In this document: positions 6,468 through 17,577 of the stretch, in pieces
Layout of the letters: every line of letters begins with the position of its first letter
Numbering within the stretch: the stretch's first letter is position 1
Assembly (NCBI RefSeq): GCF_001006045.1
Contig: NZ_CP011267.1
Span: 1,488,001-1,552,000 of the forward strand
DNA length: 64,000 nucleotides
DNA from: Geoglobus ahangari
GTDB lineage: Archaea > Halobacteriota > Archaeoglobi > Archaeoglobales > Archaeoglobaceae
Direction: 5' to 3'
Made by a program: the position numbers and the translations under genes
Notes under the pieces: model-generated
Told to the model about the DNA's origin: nothing
The model's database searches: none
Seen by the model: only the letters and a program-made list of their open reading frames with translations

Positions 6468-6589
6468 ATTTTTCATTTCCAAGCATCATTTCCGGGAATG
6501 TCGGAAGAGGTTGCGGCTTCGTGATTCTGGTCTGACCGCAAGTATAATAAATCGACGTGGCTCAGAGTCCTACACGTCAACACCCTCAA

Positions 6590-6673
6590 GCGGGGGTTGC
6601 CGAGTCAGGAAAAGGCGCGGGATTGAGGGTCCCGTCCCGTAGGGGTCCGAGGGTTCAAATCCCTCCCCCCGCA
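6590..6673 (+). tRNA. tRNA-Leu (anticodon GAG), provirus attachment gene
   Basis: The acceptor arms GCGGGGG (6590-6596) and CCCCCGC (6666-6672) pair and the discriminator is A6673. The anticodon stem CGGGA/TCCCG holds the loop TTGAGGG, giving anticodon GAG for leucine codon CUC. A long class II variable arm precedes the T arm GAGGG-TTCAAAT-CCCTC. There is no intron, and CCA is not encoded. A TATA box (GTATAATAAA, about 6542-6551) lies upstream. An integrase-like reading frame continues directly out of the 3' end. Confidence 0.95.
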
Positions 6674-7014
6674 TCCGATTTTTTAGCTGATCAGTTTGAG
6701 AGGTTCTGCAAGGCAGTGGATCTCAAGGATGTTTCTGACGACGAAAAACACCGCTATAAGAAAGCCGTGAGAGAGTTCCTCGAGGCATGTTTATACGATT
6801 TAGACGATAACCGCATAATTATTTATATAAACGAAATAAAACAGCAGCTCAGCCCACGAACGGCCAGAAAGCGCCTGATATACATTCGTGCGTTCCTCAA
6901 ATTCATAAACCACCCACTCGCAGAGCACATCGAACTGCCAAAGATACCGAGACAGAAGAAGATCGTCGTCAAGCCCAGAGACCTAAGACAGATACTCATC
7001 GAGGCGGACAGCGG
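6674..7014 (+). pseudogene. Integrase fragment (core-binding domain only) next to tRNA-Leu
   Basis: After the tRNA the frame encodes about 110 residues that look like the helical SAM-like core-binding domain of an archaeal tyrosine recombinase (HRYKKAVREFLEACLYD, SPRTARKRLIYIRAFLKFI, then a basic linker). The frame is also open backwards through the whole tRNA to 6557, as expected if attP lies inside the integrase gene (SSV-type partitioning). The catalytic domain with the Arg/His/Tyr residues is missing: at about 7010-7015 the sequence switches to antisense tail-hub sequence. It is a relic, not a working integrase. Family assignment is by pattern, not by search. Confidence 0.65.
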
Positions 7015-7371
7015 TGCTCGTACTCAACAACCTTGAAGCTGCCCTTAACCTTGATAGAGTCAAGCTTTATGCGTGTGTCAACTGCAGCCTTCCAGATTAG
7101 CAGCGATTTAAGCCTGTATTTCTCCTGCTTTTCCTCAGATTCATCATCCACTCTGCGAACCTCCAAAAGCCCAGTCTCGCTGCTGAGCACTATCTGCTCT
7201 GCGGTGTTGTCTTTCGGGACGAAGTAGCCCTTACCATCTTTAATGTAGTACCTGAAGTCTGCATCTCTCGCAAGTGTTTCAAGGGTATGTTCCAGCATCT
7301 CTGAACGACATGGGACGGGTAGTTGAGATGCCAGTCTGCACAACCTTGCCCACCACTAGGATCCAGCACTC
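7005..7371 (-). pseudogene. Phage tail hub (XkdQ/gpD-like) fragment
   Basis: Minus-strand translation gives TLARDADFRYYIKDGKGYF, SSETGLLEV and a C-terminal SIKVKGSFKVVEYEH, the pattern of contractile or siphovirus-like tail hub proteins: a peptidoglycan- or baseplate-associated ring protein with a 'DTDFxYYI...' domain and a final KG-F-V-E-H strand. Upstream in another frame at 7315-7371 the same protein continues (GKVVQTGISTTRPMSF), so there is a frameshift near 7295-7310. Both ends are cut: the C terminus by the junction with the integrase fragment, and the N terminus where it abuts the chaperone-like remnant. Non-functional provirus remnant. Confidence 0.6.
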
Positions 7372-7699
7372 TAGAAAACCATTTTTGCAACCTCGCTCAA
7401 ATCCGTTCCTTCAGGGACCGTGATGCTGGTTCTCTTGTTCATCTCTGCAAGGTTGTCAACCGCTATGATCTCAGCCGCAAGATCAGCACCTTCTTATTGT
7501 CAGTTCCGGTTCCTTCACGCATGCCAGAATCAGATCTCTGTACATGTCGGCAGGGCCTTATCTTCCCTTCCTATTGTTTTCAGCAATCTGTATCCGCTCA
7601 GTTTCTGGAGTTTTGAACACCCGCTCTTCAATATTTATTTCAAAAAAGCTTCTCGGTCGTGGATCGAAATCTTCTCGAGAAGTATAAAAATGGAAGTCA
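7372..7699 (-). pseudogene. Broken virion gene, tail-chaperone-like
   Basis: Minus-strand frames give, in order, DFHFYTSREDF, an acidic stretch ending FEINIEERVFKTPETERI, an in-frame TAA in the 7550s, then ADMYRDLILACVKEPELT, a frameshift near 7494, and AEIIAVDNLAEMNKRTS to a TAG at 7372-7374. The composition and the location downstream of the tail tube and before the hub resemble a tail assembly chaperone, but this is inferred. At least one nonsense codon and one frameshift make it non-functional. The tape-measure gene expected between it and the hub is absent. Confidence 0.5.
7651..7699. repeat. 49-bp direct repeat, copy A
   Basis: Matches copy B at 8269-8317 in 41 of 49 positions; all eight differences are transitions. 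It contains the perfect palindrome CTTCTCGAGAAG (7671-7682). It lies just downstream of the coiled-coil gene stop. Read on the minus strand both copies encode DFHFYTSREDF with silent changes only in the first 11 codons, so the repeat is probably a duplicated piece of coding sequence. Confidence 0.75.
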
Positions 7700-7706
7700 G
7701 AATAAA

Positions 7707-8175
7707 TTACTGATATGTGTTGTTTAGTTCTTCCTCAAGCTCTTTCAACTTTCTCTTGAGCTTCTCATATTCTTCTTTTTCGATTTGCTTTACTTCTTTG
7801 AGTTCTTCAATATCTATCTTGAGCTCGTCAATTTTTGCTTCAATAGCTAATAGCCTCACCATTACAGGAGACGTTAGAATTGGTTTTACATCCGTTGTTA
7901 ACTGGATGCTATTCAGGTTCCCTTGCAGCTTTTGGATTTGATCCACTATCGGTTTCATACGTTCTTGTAGTTGATTTATTGATTCCAACATTTTCCTAAA
8001 CTGGTCCATGGATGTTGCTGGAAGCCTAACTTTTTCAACTGCTTTTTGAAACTCCTCTTGTGCTTTAATCCATGGTTCAAGAGCATCTTGTAGTTTTTTT
8101 CTGCATTAAATACCATCGCTTAAGGGCTAACACCAACTGTTCATCTCTCAATTCCTGCCTCTCTTCTTCTGCCAA
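7707..8175 (-). pseudogene. Coiled-coil virion protein gene with one-base frameshift
   Basis: The 3' part (7707-8009) encodes about 100 residues of long heptad-rich helix (IEAKIDELKIDIEELKEV, EEYEKLKRKLKELEEELN). Reading further upstream, the coding pattern continues in another frame to a TTG at 8175-8173 that has GGTGAT just before it (N terminus about MAEEERQELRDEQLVLALKR). The two frames meet at a run of seven A (minus strand, 8094-8100); six A would restore one protein of about 155 residues. It could be a genuine mutation or a base-calling error. Function is unknown; its position among tail genes suggests a virion or assembly protein. Confidence 0.6.
8094..8100 (-). other. Homopolymer frameshift site
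   Basis: A run of seven A on the coding (minus) strand. Removing one A joins the two open halves of the coiled-coil gene. The shift needed is +1, so a classical -1 slippage at this A-run does not explain it. Confidence 0.6.
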
Positions 8176-8268
8176 GATTATCACCCAACATTCATATTTC
8201 TCTCAAAAATTTAAAAGTATCGAAAAGCTATAAAGCTATGAATTATGAAGAAAGTAAAACTATTAATT

Positions 8269-8317
8269 TCTCAGTCATGGGTTGAAATCTTCTCGAGAGG
8301 TATAGAAGTGGAAATCA
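8269..8317. repeat. 49-bp direct repeat, copy B
   Basis: Second copy of the element at 7651-7699 (41 of 49 identical, transitions only), sitting 11 bases after the stop of the DUF4411 toxin gene. On the minus strand it encodes the same DFHFYTSREDF peptide, but a TGA stops the frame three codons later. The coiled-coil gene lies between the two copies. Confidence 0.75.
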
Positions 8318-8328
8318 ACACAGGTATT

Positions 8329-8832
8329 TCAGAATCTCCAACCTTCGTGCCTAAACACATCAAATATTTTTAAGCATTTTATACCATAATGGTTTGAGAC
8401 ATAGGGGATTTTGACTTTATTTCCCTTCAGAATTTCTTCGGTTACTATTATAGGTTCATTAGGGCCAAAAATTGTGGGTGTCTTTCGTATTTCAAGAGCT
8501 AACGCCACTAACCAAGGGTCTGCATCTTTGTATGTATTACCGTTTATTTTAACAAACGCTTCAAAATTCTTTAGAATGTCTGCAAGGTATTTTTGCTGAG
8601 CTGTTGAATACGATCTAAACAAGTTCGGATATTTGTTTTTTTGTTCTTTAGCCCACTTTTTTAGTTCGTCGTCTTGGCTTTCGATTTCGAGGTATACTTC
8701 GATATGGGAATAGAGCCTGTCCTCTAAGTGCAAATCGATAAGTCTTTTCCATACTGATGGATATATGTCTATGGGATTGCAATCCATCAAATCTATAAGG
8801 GAACTCGAATCTATGATATATACTACCGCCAA
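8329..8832 (-). CDS. DUF4411 PIN-like toxin
   Basis: A 167-residue protein beginning MAVVYIIDSSSLIDL, with the acidic residue Asp8 of a PIN fold, a middle Glu, and YKDADPWLVALA carrying the Asp pair typical of DUF4411. PIN toxins are metal-dependent RNases. Its start overlaps by 10 bases the end of the M78-family gene upstream, the usual arrangement of COG2856/DUF4411 toxin-antitoxin modules. AT-rich codon use differs from the surrounding host genes and marks it as acquired. This pair is the only clearly intact gene set in the provirus remnant. Confidence 0.85.
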   Translation of the reverse strand: MAVVYIIDSSSLIDLMDCNPIDIYPSVWKRLIDLHLEDRLYSHIEVYLEIESQDDELKKWAKEQKNKYPNLFRSYSTAQQKYLADILKNFEAFVKINGNTYKDADPWLVALALEIRKTPTIFGPNEPIIVTEEILKGNKVKIPYVSNHYGIKCLKIFDVFRHEGWRF

Positions 8833-9995
8833 ACCCCACCCACCTGCTCTACCAGTTTATTAAATGTTCTGGTTTTAGCAGACGGGATCGCTTCTAAAGC
8901 AGCAGAATATGGGATTAAATTGTTCCTGTAATTCTGGATAACCAATGCTAAATATTTTTCTCCAAGTTCTGACAATATTCGTACTTCTGGTTTTGGCCCC
9001 CCTGATTTTTTCTTGGGAGTAGAAGATTTAATCTTAATCTTCTCTAAAGCAGTATCATACTCTTTTTTAGAGATGTAATCCAATTTTAGCATAGTGTACA
9101 ATAACATGTGTTTACTTACTTTATACCTTGCAGAGAGTTTGTTTAGAGTTTTTACCCTTGTTAACGATGAGCGATGGTTTTCGAAAACTCTGATTGCTAT
9201 GTCTTTCGGGAGCAAAAAAGATGCTGCAAACTCATTACACCACTTTTCTACTCTATTTTTGGTTGGGACAGCAATATTTGGCATATCTACTGCTGATTCC
9301 CCTAAAAGTATGTGTCCAAATTCATGCATCAATGTAAATATTCTTGGTTTGTACTGATCTCTGGAATTGATTGTTATAATCGCAGGATAGTCGTCTATCA
9401 AGGTAAACCCTCTTGCATCCTCTACTGGCATCCCATACTGGAAAACAAACACATTTAATTCTTCAATTCTATGTCTTAGGTATCTGAATAAACTTGGTGC
9501 GTCTTTAAGTTCCTCAATTTGTTTATACTCACTCAGCTCGAATTCCTCTCTATACTTCTCCGCAACCTTATCTGGATCGTCCCTAAGAGTTGCATTCATT
9601 ATGCGTGGCTCGGCACTATACTCTAAATTCTCGAGAAGTTCTTTCGCCACTTTTTGTAAACCTCTCACTTTTCTGAATACTAAAAGAGTCTCTCTATTGA
9701 ACTCACCCTCTCTACCATGGATAAAGCGATAGTCTTTGGGCACAAATATCTCTCTGGGTTTTGGAAGAAAAAATGCTGCAACAGGAACCTTATAGAGTTT
9801 AGAGAGCTCTTTAATCAATGTGAAAGAAGGTTTTATTTTTCCTTCTTCCATTAATTCGAGTTCTTCTGTTTCTATCTTTAATTTATCAGCTACTTCCTCA
9901 ATGCTGTATCCTGATATTTTCCTGAGCCATTTCATAACATCTGGGTTTAAATCAACGGGTATCTCTTCAACCACATTCAATTTTTCATCTTTCAT
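8823..9995 (-). CDS. XRE/M78 (ImmA/IrrE-like) antitoxin-protease
   Basis: 390 residues. The N terminus (about 15-75) is a helix-turn-helix (VMKWLRKISGYSIEEVADKL). The middle holds an M78 zinc-peptidase domain with HEFGHILLGE (HEXXH) near residue 240. The C terminus is a helical region. ATG 9995 is chosen over an in-frame start at 10073 because the extra 26 residues are hydrophobic, unlike the family, and a TATA-like TTTATTTAAT (about 10033-10043) predicts a start just before 9995. Such proteins repress their own operon and neutralise the DUF4411 toxin encoded next. Very AT-rich, so probably horizontally acquired. Confidence 0.85.
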   Translation of the reverse strand: MKDEKLNVVEEIPVDLNPDVMKWLRKISGYSIEEVADKLKIETEELELMEEGKIKPSFTLIKELSKLYKVPVAAFFLPKPREIFVPKDYRFIHGREGEFNRETLLVFRKVRGLQKVAKELLENLEYSAEPRIMNATLRDDPDKVAEKYREEFELSEYKQIEELKDAPSLFRYLRHRIEELNVFVFQYGMPVEDARGFTLIDDYPAIITINSRDQYKPRIFTLMHEFGHILLGESAVDMPNIAVPTKNRVEKWCNEFAASFLLPKDIAIRVFENHRSSLTRVKTLNKLSARYKVSKHMLLYTMLKLDYISKKEYDTALEKIKIKSSTPKKKSGGPKPEVRILSELGEKYLALVIQNYRNNLIPYSAALEAIPSAKTRTFNKLVEQVGGVWR

Positions 9996-10053
9996 GGTAT
10001 TAAATTTTGCTATTAATAATTTGATAAAAAACATTAAATAAAATTTCAAAGAG

Positions 10054-10431
10054 CTATGTCCAGTTCTCCTCAATCTTCAGGGCCAGACCCTCAATTGTGA
10101 CCTCTCCCACCTTGTCGCCAACATCTCCAGGATCAATCTTGGTTATCACGGCATCATGCACGTTTACTGTGAGCCCTGTCGCCCTGAATGTCACGTTGAT
10201 CACGTCTCCGTTGTTCTTGAATGCTGAGATCTGAGCAAGAGCTTCGCTGGTTATCCTGCATTTCACGCTCCAGCTCGGCTTTGGATACTTCTTGTTGTAG
10301 CCCACCACACCCTTGGCAGTTTCTATGTGGGTGATTTTCACCTCGTTGTTGTAGCTGAAGCTCACCACATCGTCAACCTCAACTCCTCCGATGCTTACAG
10401 AAGCCTCCTTAGAATACTACTCCTTGACCAT
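10054..10431 (-). pseudogene. Phage tail tube protein gene with in-frame amber codon
   Basis: The protein pattern (WSVKCRITSEALAQISAFK, EVTIEGLALKIEENWT at the end) matches tail tube proteins of the XkdM type, which polymerise into the inner tail tube. The natural start is ATG 10431-10429, with GAGGTGAT at ideal distance, but codon 5 is TAG (10419-10417) and the frame then continues open for 120 codons. The next usable start would be the internal methionine near 10368, deleting about 21 residues. The neighbouring tail genes are broken, so a nonsense mutation is more likely than recoding. Overlaps nothing; 58 bases before the toxin-antitoxin start. Confidence 0.65.
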
Positions 10432-10441
10432 TCACATCACC

Positions 10442-10617
10442 TCACACTGTAATTGCGAGATTCAGCTCGAACGTCTCGACCTCTCTAGCCAGAACTGCTG
10501 TAACGCTGACGTCCTTCAGTATTCTCTATACCTTCCAGTCTGTCCTCTGCATCGCCAAGGAATTCGAGCATAACTGCTGTATTCTCAGGAAGTATTTTAA
10601 ATGAAAGTCGTATGCTA
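10442..10617 (-). pseudogene. Short broken virion gene upstream of tail tube
   Basis: Minus-strand frames give FKILPENTAVMLEFLGDAED followed, after a frame change near 10517-10522, by ILKDVSVTAVLAREVETF and a stop TGA at 10442-10444, five bases before the tail tube Shine-Dalgarno. Two missing bases at the frame change would restore one continuous reading frame of nearly 60 codons. In related viruses the tail sheath gene sits here, so this may be its C-terminal remnant, but no sheath motif is recognisable. Confidence 0.4.
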
Positions 10618-10926
10618 GACGGTTTCGATTATCGTGGCCGTTTCCTGATACTTAACTGTGTAACGGATAAAATATAACTGTCGTCTTAAAGATCTATCTG
10701 AGCGGTAGCTCAGATCATTAATCTCCGATCTACTAGTCACCTTAATTCCATCTATGGCTAGCAGATTTTTAAGTATCACATCAGTAGTAAGTCAAAATGT
10801 AGGCGTCAATTATATCTGCAGCCGAGATGTTGGCATCATCTCTTGCATGAACATTGATGCTCAGAATTATCTGAGCTCTTCTCCTCTCGTGTAGTTAATG
10901 TCATAATCAACAATTTCTTCCTCCAC
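10615..10926 (-). pseudogene. Broken virion gene, tail-completion-like
   Basis: Starting at GTG 10926 the minus strand encodes VEEEIVDYDINYTRGEEL, then after frame changes near 10872 and 10795 ILSINVHARDDANISAADI and ILKNLLAIDGIKVTSRSEIN ... YTVKYQETATIIETV, ending TAG 10615-10617. Together this is a protein of about 105 residues with the small alpha/beta look of head-tail joining or tail completion proteins and the right position before the tail tube. At least two frameshifts. An 8-bp stem with loop GGTA (10696-10715) falls within it. Confidence 0.45.
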
Positions 10927-11018
10927 ATGGTTTTATTTTAAGAATTTTCACAAAAGCTTGAATTGAGCCAATGACAGGCTAGTTAACCCAGCAATTTTGA
11001 AAAACTGGGCAGCAGAGC

Positions 11019-11447: not shown

Positions 11448-11500
11448 GACACGTTTTTATGAGTATTTGAATATAAATGTGTTGCATTCTTTATCCGACA

Positions 11501-11529
11501 TATTAATATAGTTGTCGAACAATTGTTCG
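11501..11529 (+). promoter_or_regulatory. kaiC-like gene promoter with perfect palindrome
   Basis: A TATA box TATTAATATA (11501-11510) predicts a start site at about 11532, the A of the ATG, so the mRNA is leaderless. The perfect 14-base palindrome CGAACAATTGTTCG (11516-11529) lies between TATA box and start site, a typical position for an archaeal repressor site. Regulator unknown. Confidence 0.6.
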
Positions 11530-11531
11530 TC

Positions 11532-12860
11532 ATGGTTTTGTCAAAAATTATAAGCGGCGGCATTCCCGACGGTTCGGTAATTCTGATCTCCGGGGAGGCT
11601 GGAACCGGTAAAACTATTCTCGCTTCGTCCATAGCTCAGGAGGAGCTTGAGAGGGGTAAGAAGGTTATGTTCATATCCTTTAACGAAACTGAGGATGAGT
11701 TTTTCGAGAACATGAAAAAGGTGGGTCTGGATCTCGAAAAACCCGGGTTTCTGTACTACGATCTTTTCAGCGTTGGCAGGGGAATAGTGGAGAACCAGCT
11801 GAACTACATCTACACTGAGATCTACAAGGTCAAACCGGATCTGATTGTGATTGACTCGCTGACGTCCATTTTGACGTCTTTCTCGAGAGATCATGTTAGG
11901 AGCTTCCTGAACACGTCAATCAGCAGGTTCGTGAAAATGCTGAACTCCAAGGCAATTCTGATATCCGAAAGACCGTTTGGCAGGGAGGGGTTCGGCCACG
12001 GAATTGAGGAGTTCGTTGTCGACGGTGTGATCTCCCTTGAGCTGGTTTACGAAAGAGAACACTACAGAAGGGTGATGAGGATACTGAAGATGCGCGGAAG
12101 GAGAATAGAGAAACCCAGTTACGAGTTTGAGATAACTGACAGCGGACTGATCGTGTTTGAGATTCCTGAGCTTGATGCGAGCGAGTTCGTCTCCAACGAG
12201 AAGCTCACAACGGGGATACCACGCTTGGACGAGCTGACCAGTGGTGGATTTTACAGGGGAAGCATAACCGTCGTGGTCGGCAACACGGGAAGCGGAAAGA
12301 CGACCTTTGGCCTCCACTTCTGTCACGCAAACGCGATGCTCGGGAGGAGGGCGGTGTTCGTGACGTTTGAGGAGAGCAGGAATGCGATTTTGAGGGCCAT
12401 GGAGAACTACGGTATGGACTACGAGCCAGTGAAGGACAGACTCCTGATCTATGACTTTGTTCCGGAAGCCAAGAGCCCGATCTCGTATTTTGTGGAGATA
12501 TCCCGGCTTATATCCAGATACCGGCCGGACGTCATGGTCATCGACAGCCTCTCGTCGCTCCAGCAGCACATGAACCCCACGGAGCTGGCGAAAATGATGA
12601 GGTACCTCCAGATAGTGTCCAAGGAGAACGGAACGGCTGTGCTCGCGACGCTGAACAGGTGGGTTGATCTGTCCAGCCTCTCTTCCTTCCCGGCGACCAA
12701 TCTCAGCACGCTCGCGGACAACATGATAGTCCTGTCCACGTTTATTGAGGGAGGGGAGCTGAAAAGGAAGCTCGTGATCCTGAAGCAGAGGGCGAGTCCA
12801 CACTCTGTGAGGGTTCACGAGTACTCTCTCGGTGAGGGAGGTGTGGTGATCCATGACTGA
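11532..12860 (+). CDS. KaiC-like double-RecA-domain ATPase
   Basis: 442 residues in two RecA-like halves. The first has Walker A GEAGTGKT (residues 21-28) and Walker B LIVIDSLTS. The second has Walker A GNTGSGKT (about 252-259) and Walker B VMVIDSLSS. The cyanobacterial KaiC phosphorylation sites are not recognisable, and no kaiA or kaiB is near. Archaeal proteins of this class are thought to be signal-transduction ATPases, often linked to motility. The start ATG 11532 is chosen because the promoter geometry makes it leaderless. It overlaps by 8 bases the small gene that follows, indicating translational coupling. Confidence 0.9.
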   Translation: MVLSKIISGGIPDGSVILISGEAGTGKTILASSIAQEELERGKKVMFISFNETEDEFFENMKKVGLDLEKPGFLYYDLFSVGRGIVENQLNYIYTEIYKVKPDLIVIDSLTSILTSFSRDHVRSFLNTSISRFVKMLNSKAILISERPFGREGFGHGIEEFVVDGVISLELVYEREHYRRVMRILKMRGRRIEKPSYEFEITDSGLIVFEIPELDASEFVSNEKLTTGIPRLDELTSGGFYRGSITVVVGNTGSGKTTFGLHFCHANAMLGRRAVFVTFEESRNAILRAMENYGMDYEPVKDRLLIYDFVPEAKSPISYFVEISRLISRYRPDVMVIDSLSSLQQHMNPTELAKMMRYLQIVSKENGTAVLATLNRWVDLSSLSSFPATNLSTLADNMIVLSTFIEGGELKRKLVILKQRASPHSVRVHEYSLGEGGVVIHD

Positions 12861-13158
12861 GGAGCTGCCGGACTCGACAGAGGAGCTTGTGGTCGAGGCT
12901 GTGAGAAAGGCAGCGGAAAAGACGAATCCCGCGCTCGTGAGGGTGCTTGAGGTTCACCTGAAGGAGACAACGGGCATGGGGCTTGACGTGGCCTACAGGG
13001 ATGCCGATGCCTTCATAGAGAGTGTGAAGAAGCTGTTCGGCGAGTATGGGGCGAGATTTTTCGAACTTGCGATTATCGGGGAGATAAGGGACACCTTCGG
13101 GATTGCGACGGCAGCGGACACTCTCAGAGATGTCGTTCGGGAATTGAAGGGGATGTGA
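12853..13158 (+). CDS. Small helical protein coupled to KaiC, NitrOD5-like
   Basis: 101 residues, all helical in appearance: an N-terminal helix with AVRKAAEKTNPALVRVLEVHL, then DADAFIESVKKLFGEYGARFFELAIIGEIRDTFGI. This resembles the archaeal NitrOD5 output domain, which is found alone or attached to signalling proteins. No catalytic motif is seen. The start overlaps the KaiC-like gene by 8 bases (ATG 12853), so the two proteins are probably made together and may interact. Family assignment is moderately sure; function is unknown. Confidence 0.7.
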   Translation: MTEELPDSTEELVVEAVRKAAEKTNPALVRVLEVHLKETTGMGLDVAYRDADAFIESVKKLFGEYGARFFELAIIGEIRDTFGIATAADTLRDVVRELKGM

Positions 13159-13183
13159 CGTGAATGTTAATGAATAATCAGAA

Positions 13184-13197
13184 AAGTTTAAATATTC
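13184..13197 (+). promoter_or_regulatory. Promoter P1 of the aromatic operon (drives leader ORF)
   Basis: Purine-rich BRE-like GAAAAG followed by TTTAAATAT centred near 13190 predicts a start site at about 13215-13218. This coincides with the ATG of the aromatic leader ORF at 13218, so that ORF would be read from a leaderless or nearly leaderless mRNA. Confidence 0.6.
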
Positions 13198-13217
13198 AGC
13201 ACCGAGACTTCATTTGA

Positions 13218-13292
13218 ATGCCCGCACACACGAGCAGGTATGGGTATTTCGGATTTTTCTGGTTTAACTTTAGCTTTGGCTTTAGCTTCTGA
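13218..13292 (+). CDS. Aromatic-rich 24-residue leader peptide, candidate attenuator
   Basis: ATG 13218 to TGA 13290-13292 encodes a peptide beginning MPAHTSRYGYFGFFWF. Of 24 residues, eight are Phe (11, 13, 14, 16, 18, 20, 22, 24), two Tyr (8, 10) and one Trp (15). It ends 90 bases before the first gene of the operon that makes Phe, Tyr and the chorismate precursor. Five of the eight Phe codons are TTT, making the transcript U-rich (TTTTT at 13254-13258). The layout mirrors bacterial pheA/trp leader peptides, where ribosome stalling on scarce aminoacyl-tRNA controls downstream expression. How stalling would be read here (U-tract termination, RNA folding or promoter interference) is inferred. 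The start matches promoter P1. Confidence 0.7.
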   Translation: MPAHTSRYGYFGFFWFNFSFGFSF

Positions 13293-15712: not shown

Positions 15713-17577
15713 GGATCCTGATTTACGGAATGGGCGGGATGGGTGGAATTTTCCACAGGTTCTTCGAGAACAGGGGCTACTTCGTCAAGGGCTACGACCT
15801 GAACCCCGACAGGAGTGAGGTGAGCTACGGGGAGATCGACGGGTTTGACGTCATATTTCTCTGCGTTCCAATGGATGAGATAGAGAATGCCCTCGAGGAC
15901 ATAGCAAGGAAGAACAGGAGCGCGCTCATAGTGGACATCTCAACGCTAAAGAACCTCGCAATTCCCCACCTCGAGAGGCTTGGCTTTGACTACCTCAGCA
16001 TCCACCCGATGTTCGGGCCGGACAGCGAGATAGGACTGTCGAACATAATCGTCGTTCACGAGAGTGGTAGGGAGGAGGAAAGGGTAATCCTCGAGGAGTT
16101 CAGAAGGGCTGGGGCAATAATCTCTCACATCTCTGTGGAGGAGCATGACAGGAAGATGGCCGAAATTCAGGGAACGGCCCACTTCCTCCTCTTCCTGTTC
16201 GCCCTGACTCTCAGGGGAAGGTTCGGGAAGGCATACCACTACGGCTCCCCGATATTTCTTGTCATGCACAAGCTCGCCAGCAGGATAATCAATCAGGACT
16301 GGAGGCTGTACTACCACATTCAGAAGAACGCTGAGGAGCTGAGGAAGGAGATTCTGGAGAATGCAAGGGTTCTTGACGAGATCATGAAGGACGAGCGGTC
16401 GTTCAAGGGCCTTGTTGATGAGCTGAGAGAGGAATTCGACGATTACAGGGACTCGACGATAGTGCTTGATGCGTACAAAACGACCGTCAATGCAGAGGGC
16501 ATAGACATGCTGAGGGGCTACATAAGGGCGATAGACTCCCTCGTCCTCCGGCTGATCGAGAAGAGGGTTGAGGCCGGAAGAAAGGTGGCTATGGAGAAGC
16601 TGAAGCTCAACGAGCCGGTCGAGATCTCTCATGTAGAGGATGTCAAGCTGAGGGAGCTTGTGACCAAAACAGAACTGAACCCCGTGATGGTCTCGGAGAT
16701 CTTCGAGAGGCTGATGAAGCTCACCAAGGAGGAGGAGTACAGGATTCTCGGTGTGAGGAAGAAGGTTGCCGTTCTCGGCCCTCCGGGAAGCTTTTCTGAG
16801 GAGACGGCGTTAAAGCTCGTGGGCTCGAGGCTGCCCCTCATCTACCAGAGCAAGGTGGAGGACATATTTCTCGCGGTGGAGAGCGGGAAAGCAGATTACG
16901 GCATAGTCCCCATAGAGAACTCCCTTCAGGGGACTGTCCTGCAGACCCTCGATGCTCTCTTGAGGCATGACGTGGAGGTCTTCGCCGAATACGAGTCGGA
17001 GATCAGGCACAACCTCGTGGCCAAGAAGCGACTGCCCCTCAGGGACATAGAGGTCGTGTACTCCCACCCTCAGGCAATAGCCCAGTGCAGCGAGTTCATA
17101 AACAACTACCTACCGCACGCGGAGATAAGGTACACGAGAACCACAAGCGAGGCGATAGAGATGCTGGACGACAGGTCAGCGGCCATAGCGTCTGAGCTCG
17201 CGGCCAAGCTCTACAGGCTGCAGGTCATAAAGAGGGACATTCAGTCATTGACGTCAAACAGGACGAGGTTCTACATTATACGGAGGAGTGGCGGCTCTGT
17301 GAATGGTGATGAGAGCCTGACGTGCCTGTTCTTCGGAGTGGATGACAGGCCGGGGGCACTCTACAGGGTGCTTGAGGTCTTCTACAAGAACGGGATAAAC
17401 CTCAGGAAGCTCGAGAGCAGGCCAGCTGGCACGAGGCTCGGGGACTACATATTCTTCGCCGAGGCTGAGGAAAAGCTCGGAGAAAACATCGTGGAGGAGA
17501 TAAAAAAGAGAACGACGTTCTGCAAGGTCGCTGGCTTCTTCAGGAAGGTTGACAGGCTCGACGTCTTCACAGGTTAG
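15709..17577 (+). CDS. Trifunctional prephenate dehydrogenase / chorismate mutase / prephenate dehydratase
   Basis: 622 residues join three enzymes of Phe and Tyr synthesis. About 1-260 is an NAD(P)-dependent prephenate dehydrogenase (IYGMGGMGGIFHRFF nucleotide site, SIHPMFGP, H-F-L helix). About 261-345 is an AroQ chorismate mutase (IDSLVLRLIEKRVEAGRKVA). About 350-622 is prephenate dehydratase (GPPGSFSEETA, TRTTSEAIEM, TSNRTRFYII) with a C-terminal ACT domain (FFGVDDRPGALYRVLEVF, ESRP) for feedback by Phe. A. fulgidus has the same fusion (AF0227). ATG 15709 overlaps the aroD stop. Its stop overlaps a convergent gene by 11 bases. Confidence 0.95.
   Translation: MRILIYGMGGMGGIFHRFFENRGYFVKGYDLNPDRSEVSYGEIDGFDVIFLCVPMDEIENALEDIARKNRSALIVDISTLKNLAIPHLERLGFDYLSIHPMFGPDSEIGLSNIIVVHESGREEERVILEEFRRAGAIISHISVEEHDRKMAEIQGTAHFLLFLFALTLRGRFGKAYHYGSPIFLVMHKLASRIINQDWRLYYHIQKNAEELRKEILENARVLDEIMKDERSFKGLVDELREEFDDYRDSTIVLDAYKTTVNAEGIDMLRGYIRAIDSLVLRLIEKRVEAGRKVAMEKLKLNEPVEISHVEDVKLRELVTKTELNPVMVSEIFERLMKLTKEEEYRILGVRKKVAVLGPPGSFSEETALKLVGSRLPLIYQSKVEDIFLAVESGKADYGIVPIENSLQGTVLQTLDALLRHDVEVFAEYESEIRHNLVAKKRLPLRDIEVVYSHPQAIAQCSEFINNYLPHAEIRYTRTTSEAIEMLDDRSAAIASELAAKLYRLQVIKRDIQSLTSNRTRFYIIRRSGGSVNGDESLTCLFFGVDDRPGALYRVLEVFYKNGINLRKLESRPAGTRLGDYIFFAEAEEKLGENIVEEIKKRTTFCKVAGFFRKVDRLDVFTG

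Follow-up and report, generated by a model that had tools for sequence, protein, structure and literature searches.

The window, a stretch of 64,000 nucleotides at C1:1488001-1552000 of the single 1,770,093-bp contig of the Geoglobus ahangari genome, contains an intact tRNA-Leu(GAG) gene followed by the features collected in Table 1. The tRNA is 100% identical to the tRNA-Leu(GAG) of congeners and is shorter than the gene placed at 6557-6673 in the original prediction, as 6557-6589 is merely upstream DNA with an in-frame GTG at 6557. Immediately downstream and in frame with the tRNA 3′ half lies a fragment of an integrase gene, intC, which matches a PHROG integrase profile (5.7e-6), remains under every Pfam cut-off when taken alone, and shows 85% amino acid and 89.6% nucleotide identity to a complete integrase of the congener G002. 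The latter stands at tRNA-Leu(TAA) and likewise reads through a tRNA. Integrase homology breaks off sharply about 23 residues ahead of the first catalytic arginine, in agreement with a predicted truncation before the catalytic residues, and no remnant of the catalytic domain was found elsewhere in the whole genome.

Table 1. Features at and downstream of tRNA-Leu(GAG), in window coordinates
Feature	Coordinates	Strand	Evidence
tRNA-Leu(GAG), intact; rebuilt attB / left junction	6590..6673	+	ARAGORN
intC fragment, continuing the frame of the tRNA 3′ half; encodes the integrase core-binding domain and lacks the catalytic one	6674..7012	+	
Baseplate hub pseudogene, frameshifted fragment	7008..7493	-	PHROG 196 baseplate hub 1.6e-12; 65% identity to L123
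Deletion junction, intC joined to minus-strand baseplate-hub gene	7012..7013	.	Integrase homology ends 7012, hub homology begins ~7008
Coiled-coil ORF and remnant, also in a viral contig	7707..8160	-	Best segment 74% identity to L120
DUF4411 gene, intact	8329..8832	-	Pfam 1.1e-26; 74% identity to G028 copy
HTH + M78 (ImmA/IrrE-like) gene, intact, partner of DUF4411	8823..10073	-	Pfam M78 1.7e-15; 73-74% identity to G028 copy
Gene in tail-tube position, after sheath gene in L123	10054..10368	-	No profile match of its own
Remnant of tail-sheath gene 3′ end	10379..10534	-	Matches L123 5712-5867, end of sheath gene (PHROG 205)
Displaced tRNA-Leu(GAG) 3′ flank CATGGTTTTATTTT, right end of insertion	10926..10939	+	Follows uninterrupted tRNA-Leu(GAG) in G003, G005, G006

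The frame encoding the integrase domain passes through tRNA-Leu(GAG), of which it is the sole stop-free frame, leads into the core-binding domain and ends at 7033. It had been described as open through the entire tRNA, and from stop to stop it does span 161 codons, but an open frame of this kind is weak evidence alone and little better than chance. Across 63 distinct tRNA genes, 49% of sense frames lack a stop. Congeners that have no integrase at tRNA-Leu(GAG) show this frame open as well, and the tRNA 5′ half, which lies outside the duplicated att core, contains a stop in six of 22 true members of the family. The weight of the split-integrase reading is therefore carried by the homologs. With about half of tRNA frames open anyway, the tRNA frame and the integrase domain could be unrelated, an ordinary integrase fragment having landed beside a tRNA; this is extremely improbable, as at all 22 loci with an identifiable tRNA (window included) the tRNA is intact and points in the same direction, with the integrase frame running out of its 3′ end and a conserved YIN motif following that end at a near-constant 51-57 residues.

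The integrase domain is encoded in 26 of the 99 genomes searched, the window's own included. A single-sequence search of the genome collection with the window fragment gave no confirmed match, and a search with an alignment returned chiefly Archaeoglobi together with weak bacterial matches; plasmid records gave no match, and phage records only two weak ones, to Acinetobacter phages at 23% identity. The tRNAs targeted are those for Leu (five anticodons), Gly, Arg, Gln, Lys, Ser and Thr, with at least 13 anticodons represented. Nine integrated elements of about 2.6 to 40 kb have both ends (in G001, G016, G027 (twice), G028, G029, G039, G040 and G057). Each has intC at the intact tRNA and, at the far end, a copy of the tRNA 3′ half of 45-63 nt that is 97-100% identical; ahead of this copy, and in its frame, stands intN, an RHH/CcdA-like segment of 40-45 residues (MKKRTSxYxDAxL...; Pfam CcdA). 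The intN frame through the tRNA copy is the intC frame in 9/9 elements, for which the chance is about 5e-5 with three equal frames and about 1e-3 when only stop-free frames are counted. Furthermore, one 3.4-kb contig carries an unsplit integrase gene; a check of this contig for circularity found no terminal overlap. Frame-matched intN and intC parts and an unsplit gene are to be expected if the attachment site lies within the integrase gene, and they bear out the assignment of the window fragment to the intC side of a gene split at the tRNA 3′ half. By the extent seen in the relatives, the att core of the window would be about 6620-6673.

A classical integrase in the style of pNOB8 or lambda, starting just after or inside the tRNA, never split and merely lying beside the attachment site, would accord with the GTG at 6557 in the window frame, with the lack of an intN in the window genome and with the Xer-like nature of the enzyme, which pNOB8-type enzymes share. 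It is nevertheless very unlikely, since nine relatives carry the RHH-type segment before the 45-63 nt tRNA copy in the exact intC frame and the unsplit protein joins both parts. One further element, a 37-kb region of G002 (G002:C1:713672-750633; L064, L084), has mismatched ends, with a left intC in the VQIP frame and a right intN in the FKS frame that continues into the start of another intC, and resembles two elements that are nested or have formed a hybrid.

The right end of the insertion is marked by the displaced flank of the tRNA. The bases after the uninterrupted tRNA-Leu(GAG) in G003, G005 and G006 are TGGTTTTATTTTGAAAAT, and in the window intC stands in place of this normal 3′ flank, while CATGGTTTTATTTT occurs at 10926 with zero mismatches, against a chance expectation of 0.23 matches per window at up to two mismatches. 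The 13-mer ATGGTTTTATTTT has two copies in the whole genome, the second being directly 3′ of tRNA-Leu(TAA). As the flank has been replaced by intC and reappears at 10926, the insertion spans 6674 to about 10926 (4.3 kb), and its far end lies there rather than past 11000 as originally proposed. Neither the expected second copy of the tRNA 3′ half nor intN was found in the whole single-contig genome, and for this reason the split at the window locus itself is not directly seen. The refutation of a split gene set out in advance required two observations together, a missing tRNA copy and unsplit homologs that start after the tRNA, and of these the missing copy alone is borne out. A decayed tRNA copy just before 10926 is not claimed, as the tRNA-like alignment there is marginal, with 5% of shuffles equally good. 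The displaced-flank test offers a simple way to locate the far end of decayed insertions that lack a second tRNA copy. Beyond the insertion, the YdjM-like gene and aldolase region corresponding to window 11451-13279 are about 260 bp apart in G001, a spacing suggesting that the KaiC-like gene (11523-12860) and the gene after it were inserted or lost.

Between intC and the displaced flank lie remnants of viral genes in the same order as in viral loci. L123 has hub, sheath and tube genes, and L120 and L115 combine the integrase family of the window with a hub gene, L115 being a related provirus that sits in tRNA-Leu(GAG) itself. The contractile tailed-provirus gene set was seen in G002, where the provirus carries terminase, portal, head, sheath, tape-measure and baseplate genes, and in part in G001 and L123; the window keeps just the hub, sheath-end and tube-position remnants of it. 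In the G002 provirus about 5 kb separate intC from the hub gene, which would put the deletion at 7012 at about 5 kb or more. Some of the window remnants may be later additions by other events. The coiled-coil ORF is flanked by a 50-bp direct repeat (84%; 7650-7699 and 8268-8317) containing GAAATCTTCTCGAGA, possibly a shared promoter or operator.

Remnants of intC are present at tRNA-Leu(GAG) in all three complete Geoglobus genomes, and the first bases after the tRNA are similar, as would be expected if the G001 and G002 remnants were the same insertion and the scar had been inherited from a common Geoglobus ancestor. Common inheritance is improbable on several grounds: the G001 and G002 remnants have only 38-43% amino acid identity to the window integrase, compared with 85% for the G002 integrase at tRNA-Leu(TAA); the other window remnants were not found at the tRNA-Leu(GAG) loci of G001 and G002; and the site is uninterrupted in G003, G005 and G006. 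The two congeners share another integrase scar at tRNA-Leu(GAG), an older one (L068 6902-7400 in G001 and L075 4103-4600 in G002), which is derived from a different integrase than that of the window.

The DUF4411 gene and its HTH-M78 partner are intact within the scar and form a pair that is also present inside the G028 element, with the HTH-M78 gene also found in the viral contig L116. Compared with the G028 copies, the DUF4411 gene has a pN of 0.14 and a pS of 0.76, the pair as a whole has a pN of 0.14-0.15 and a pS of 0.73-0.76, and dN/dS of the HTH-M78 gene is about 0.06. As pN is far below pS, the pair is under strong purifying selection, and selection has probably kept it intact in the decayed provirus. 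PADLOC lists RmrA-like matches for the M78 protein, and the pair may be retained as a toxin-antitoxin or defence pair. It could have arrived together with the virus.

Taking the locus and its relatives as a whole, the segment from 6674 to about 10926 is very probably the relic of a contractile-tailed provirus in tRNA-Leu(GAG), whose integrase gene was split on integration and which was later reduced by deletion while the intact DUF4411/HTH-M78 pair was kept. From the intC fragment, the displaced flank and the viral gene remnants observed in the window, and from the intN/intC pairs observed in relatives, a likely order of events can be proposed. The integrase gene of the virus would have begun with a short N-terminal segment of RHH type, followed by the sense-read tRNA 3′ half as a linker and then by the core-binding and catalytic domains. 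On integration tRNA-Leu(GAG) would have been rebuilt with intC beside it and intN at the opposite end of the provirus; with its two parts so separated, the gene would be split and self-excision presumably blocked. Deletions would later have removed the catalytic half of intC together with a stretch of at least about 5 kb reaching to the baseplate-hub gene, as well as most of the virus and intN with the second tRNA copy.

The part of the integrase encoded by the tRNA appears to be tolerant of its own sequence. The conserved T-arm is read in all three frames, giving FKS/FES at 8 loci, VQIP at 7 and GSNP/GSTP at 7, and mapping the frame onto the integrase tree takes about six changes, which rules out reading phase as a clade marker. 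When the unsplit protein is modelled with AlphaFold, confidence is good for the core-binding and catalytic domains, low at residues 1-6 and lowest at residues 39-57, a range spanning most of the tRNA-coded linker (44-59). A disordered linker, as the model would suggest, would explain the tolerance of all three frames.

In a review (PMC8371274), suicidal integrases, in which the gene is split on integration, are placed in the SSV, pTN3 and pT26-2 families with PF16795, and a single origin is suggested for them. The same review takes a PF16795 (Phage_integr_3) catalytic domain as the criterion for the SSV type. Members of the window family score 16-24 bits against this profile, whose cut-off is 27 bits, compared with 100-213 bits for strong PF16795 integrases of the same genomes, and cross-scores between HMMs of the two groups are at most 18 bits. 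Searched against structures, the window-family profile finds XerA (60 bits) but not SSV1, and a profile built from PF16795 integrases finds SSV1 (63 bits) but not XerA. XerA also ranks first for the window family in a fold search, and a XerA profile scores 70 and 96 bits for the family, below the equivalog cut-off for XerA (NF040815, 220 bits). Two PF16795 integrase regions, of the true SSV-type lineage, are present elsewhere in the window's own genome (G000:C1:1150026-1150544 and 16862-17302).

The attachment site is also placed differently in the two groups. The window family reads the tRNA 3′ half in sense and has intC at the intact tRNA, whereas of the 27 PF16795 ORFs, which come almost entirely from Archaeoglobi genomes, 17 have the T-arm antisense and none in sense, and none has an intact tRNA adjoining its start. 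The window family and PF16795 integrases thus place the site in opposite orientation, and would leave opposite halves of the gene at the tRNA. The PF16795 member L161 appears to use the tRNA 5′ half in sense, as described for pTN3 (PMC8371274). Xer-like integrases with an antisense tRNA 3′ half inside the gene were seen at L046 (1345-2268), which belongs to another family of the phylum and scores 205 bits to the window-family HMM, and at L123 (3555-4601, minus strand; 36 bits), so that att orientation varies across the wider Xer-like group. The description of the scar as SSV-type consequently stands for the mechanism, an att site inside a gene that is split, and fails for the family, given the sub-threshold PF16795 scores, the XerA structures as nearest neighbours and an att orientation opposite to that of typical PF16795 integrases.

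Compared with known systems, the window family shares with the type I, suicidal integrases of SSV1, pTN3 and pT26-2 (PMC8371274) an att inside the integrase gene, a tRNA target and the intN/intC split, with an att of 45-63 nt in relatives against about 45-60 bp in the SSV type (criterion about 40-60 bp); it departs from them in failing to reach PF16795, in having XerA as its nearest neighbour and in its sense tRNA 3′ half. Like XerA and pNOB8-like recombinases it has core-binding and catalytic (PF00589) domains and XerA as best match by sequence and fold, but it differs from these in its extra RHH segment, its tRNA-coded linker and the splitting of the gene on integration. ArcVen-P3 of Archaeoglobus veneficus (PMC4158269) similarly comes from the Archaeoglobi and has its split integrase at a tRNA gene, but that integrase was called SSV-like by its authors, with a Thermococcus spindle-shaped virus as the nearest relative, and it is not a tailed provirus. 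No description of Xer-like self-splitting integrases was found in the open-access literature searched, outside which the main 2020 suicidal-integrase paper lies, and an earlier description is possible.

Judged from these sequence comparisons, the window family may well represent a second origin of self-splitting, contrary to a single PF16795 origin. It would be a Xer-like lineage found in Archaeoglobi proviruses, with a sense-oriented tRNA 3′ half, a disordered linker read in three frames and at least 13 anticodons as targets. Since a fixed tRNA sequence is read in each of its three frames, the amino acids of the linker would seem to be of little importance, and this indifference may help such integrases to switch tRNA targets. 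If the family lies outside the SSV, pTN3 and pT26-2 group, the self-splitting strategy, thought to have evolved once, would have evolved at least twice, and with two origins the selection favouring self-splitting would become testable.
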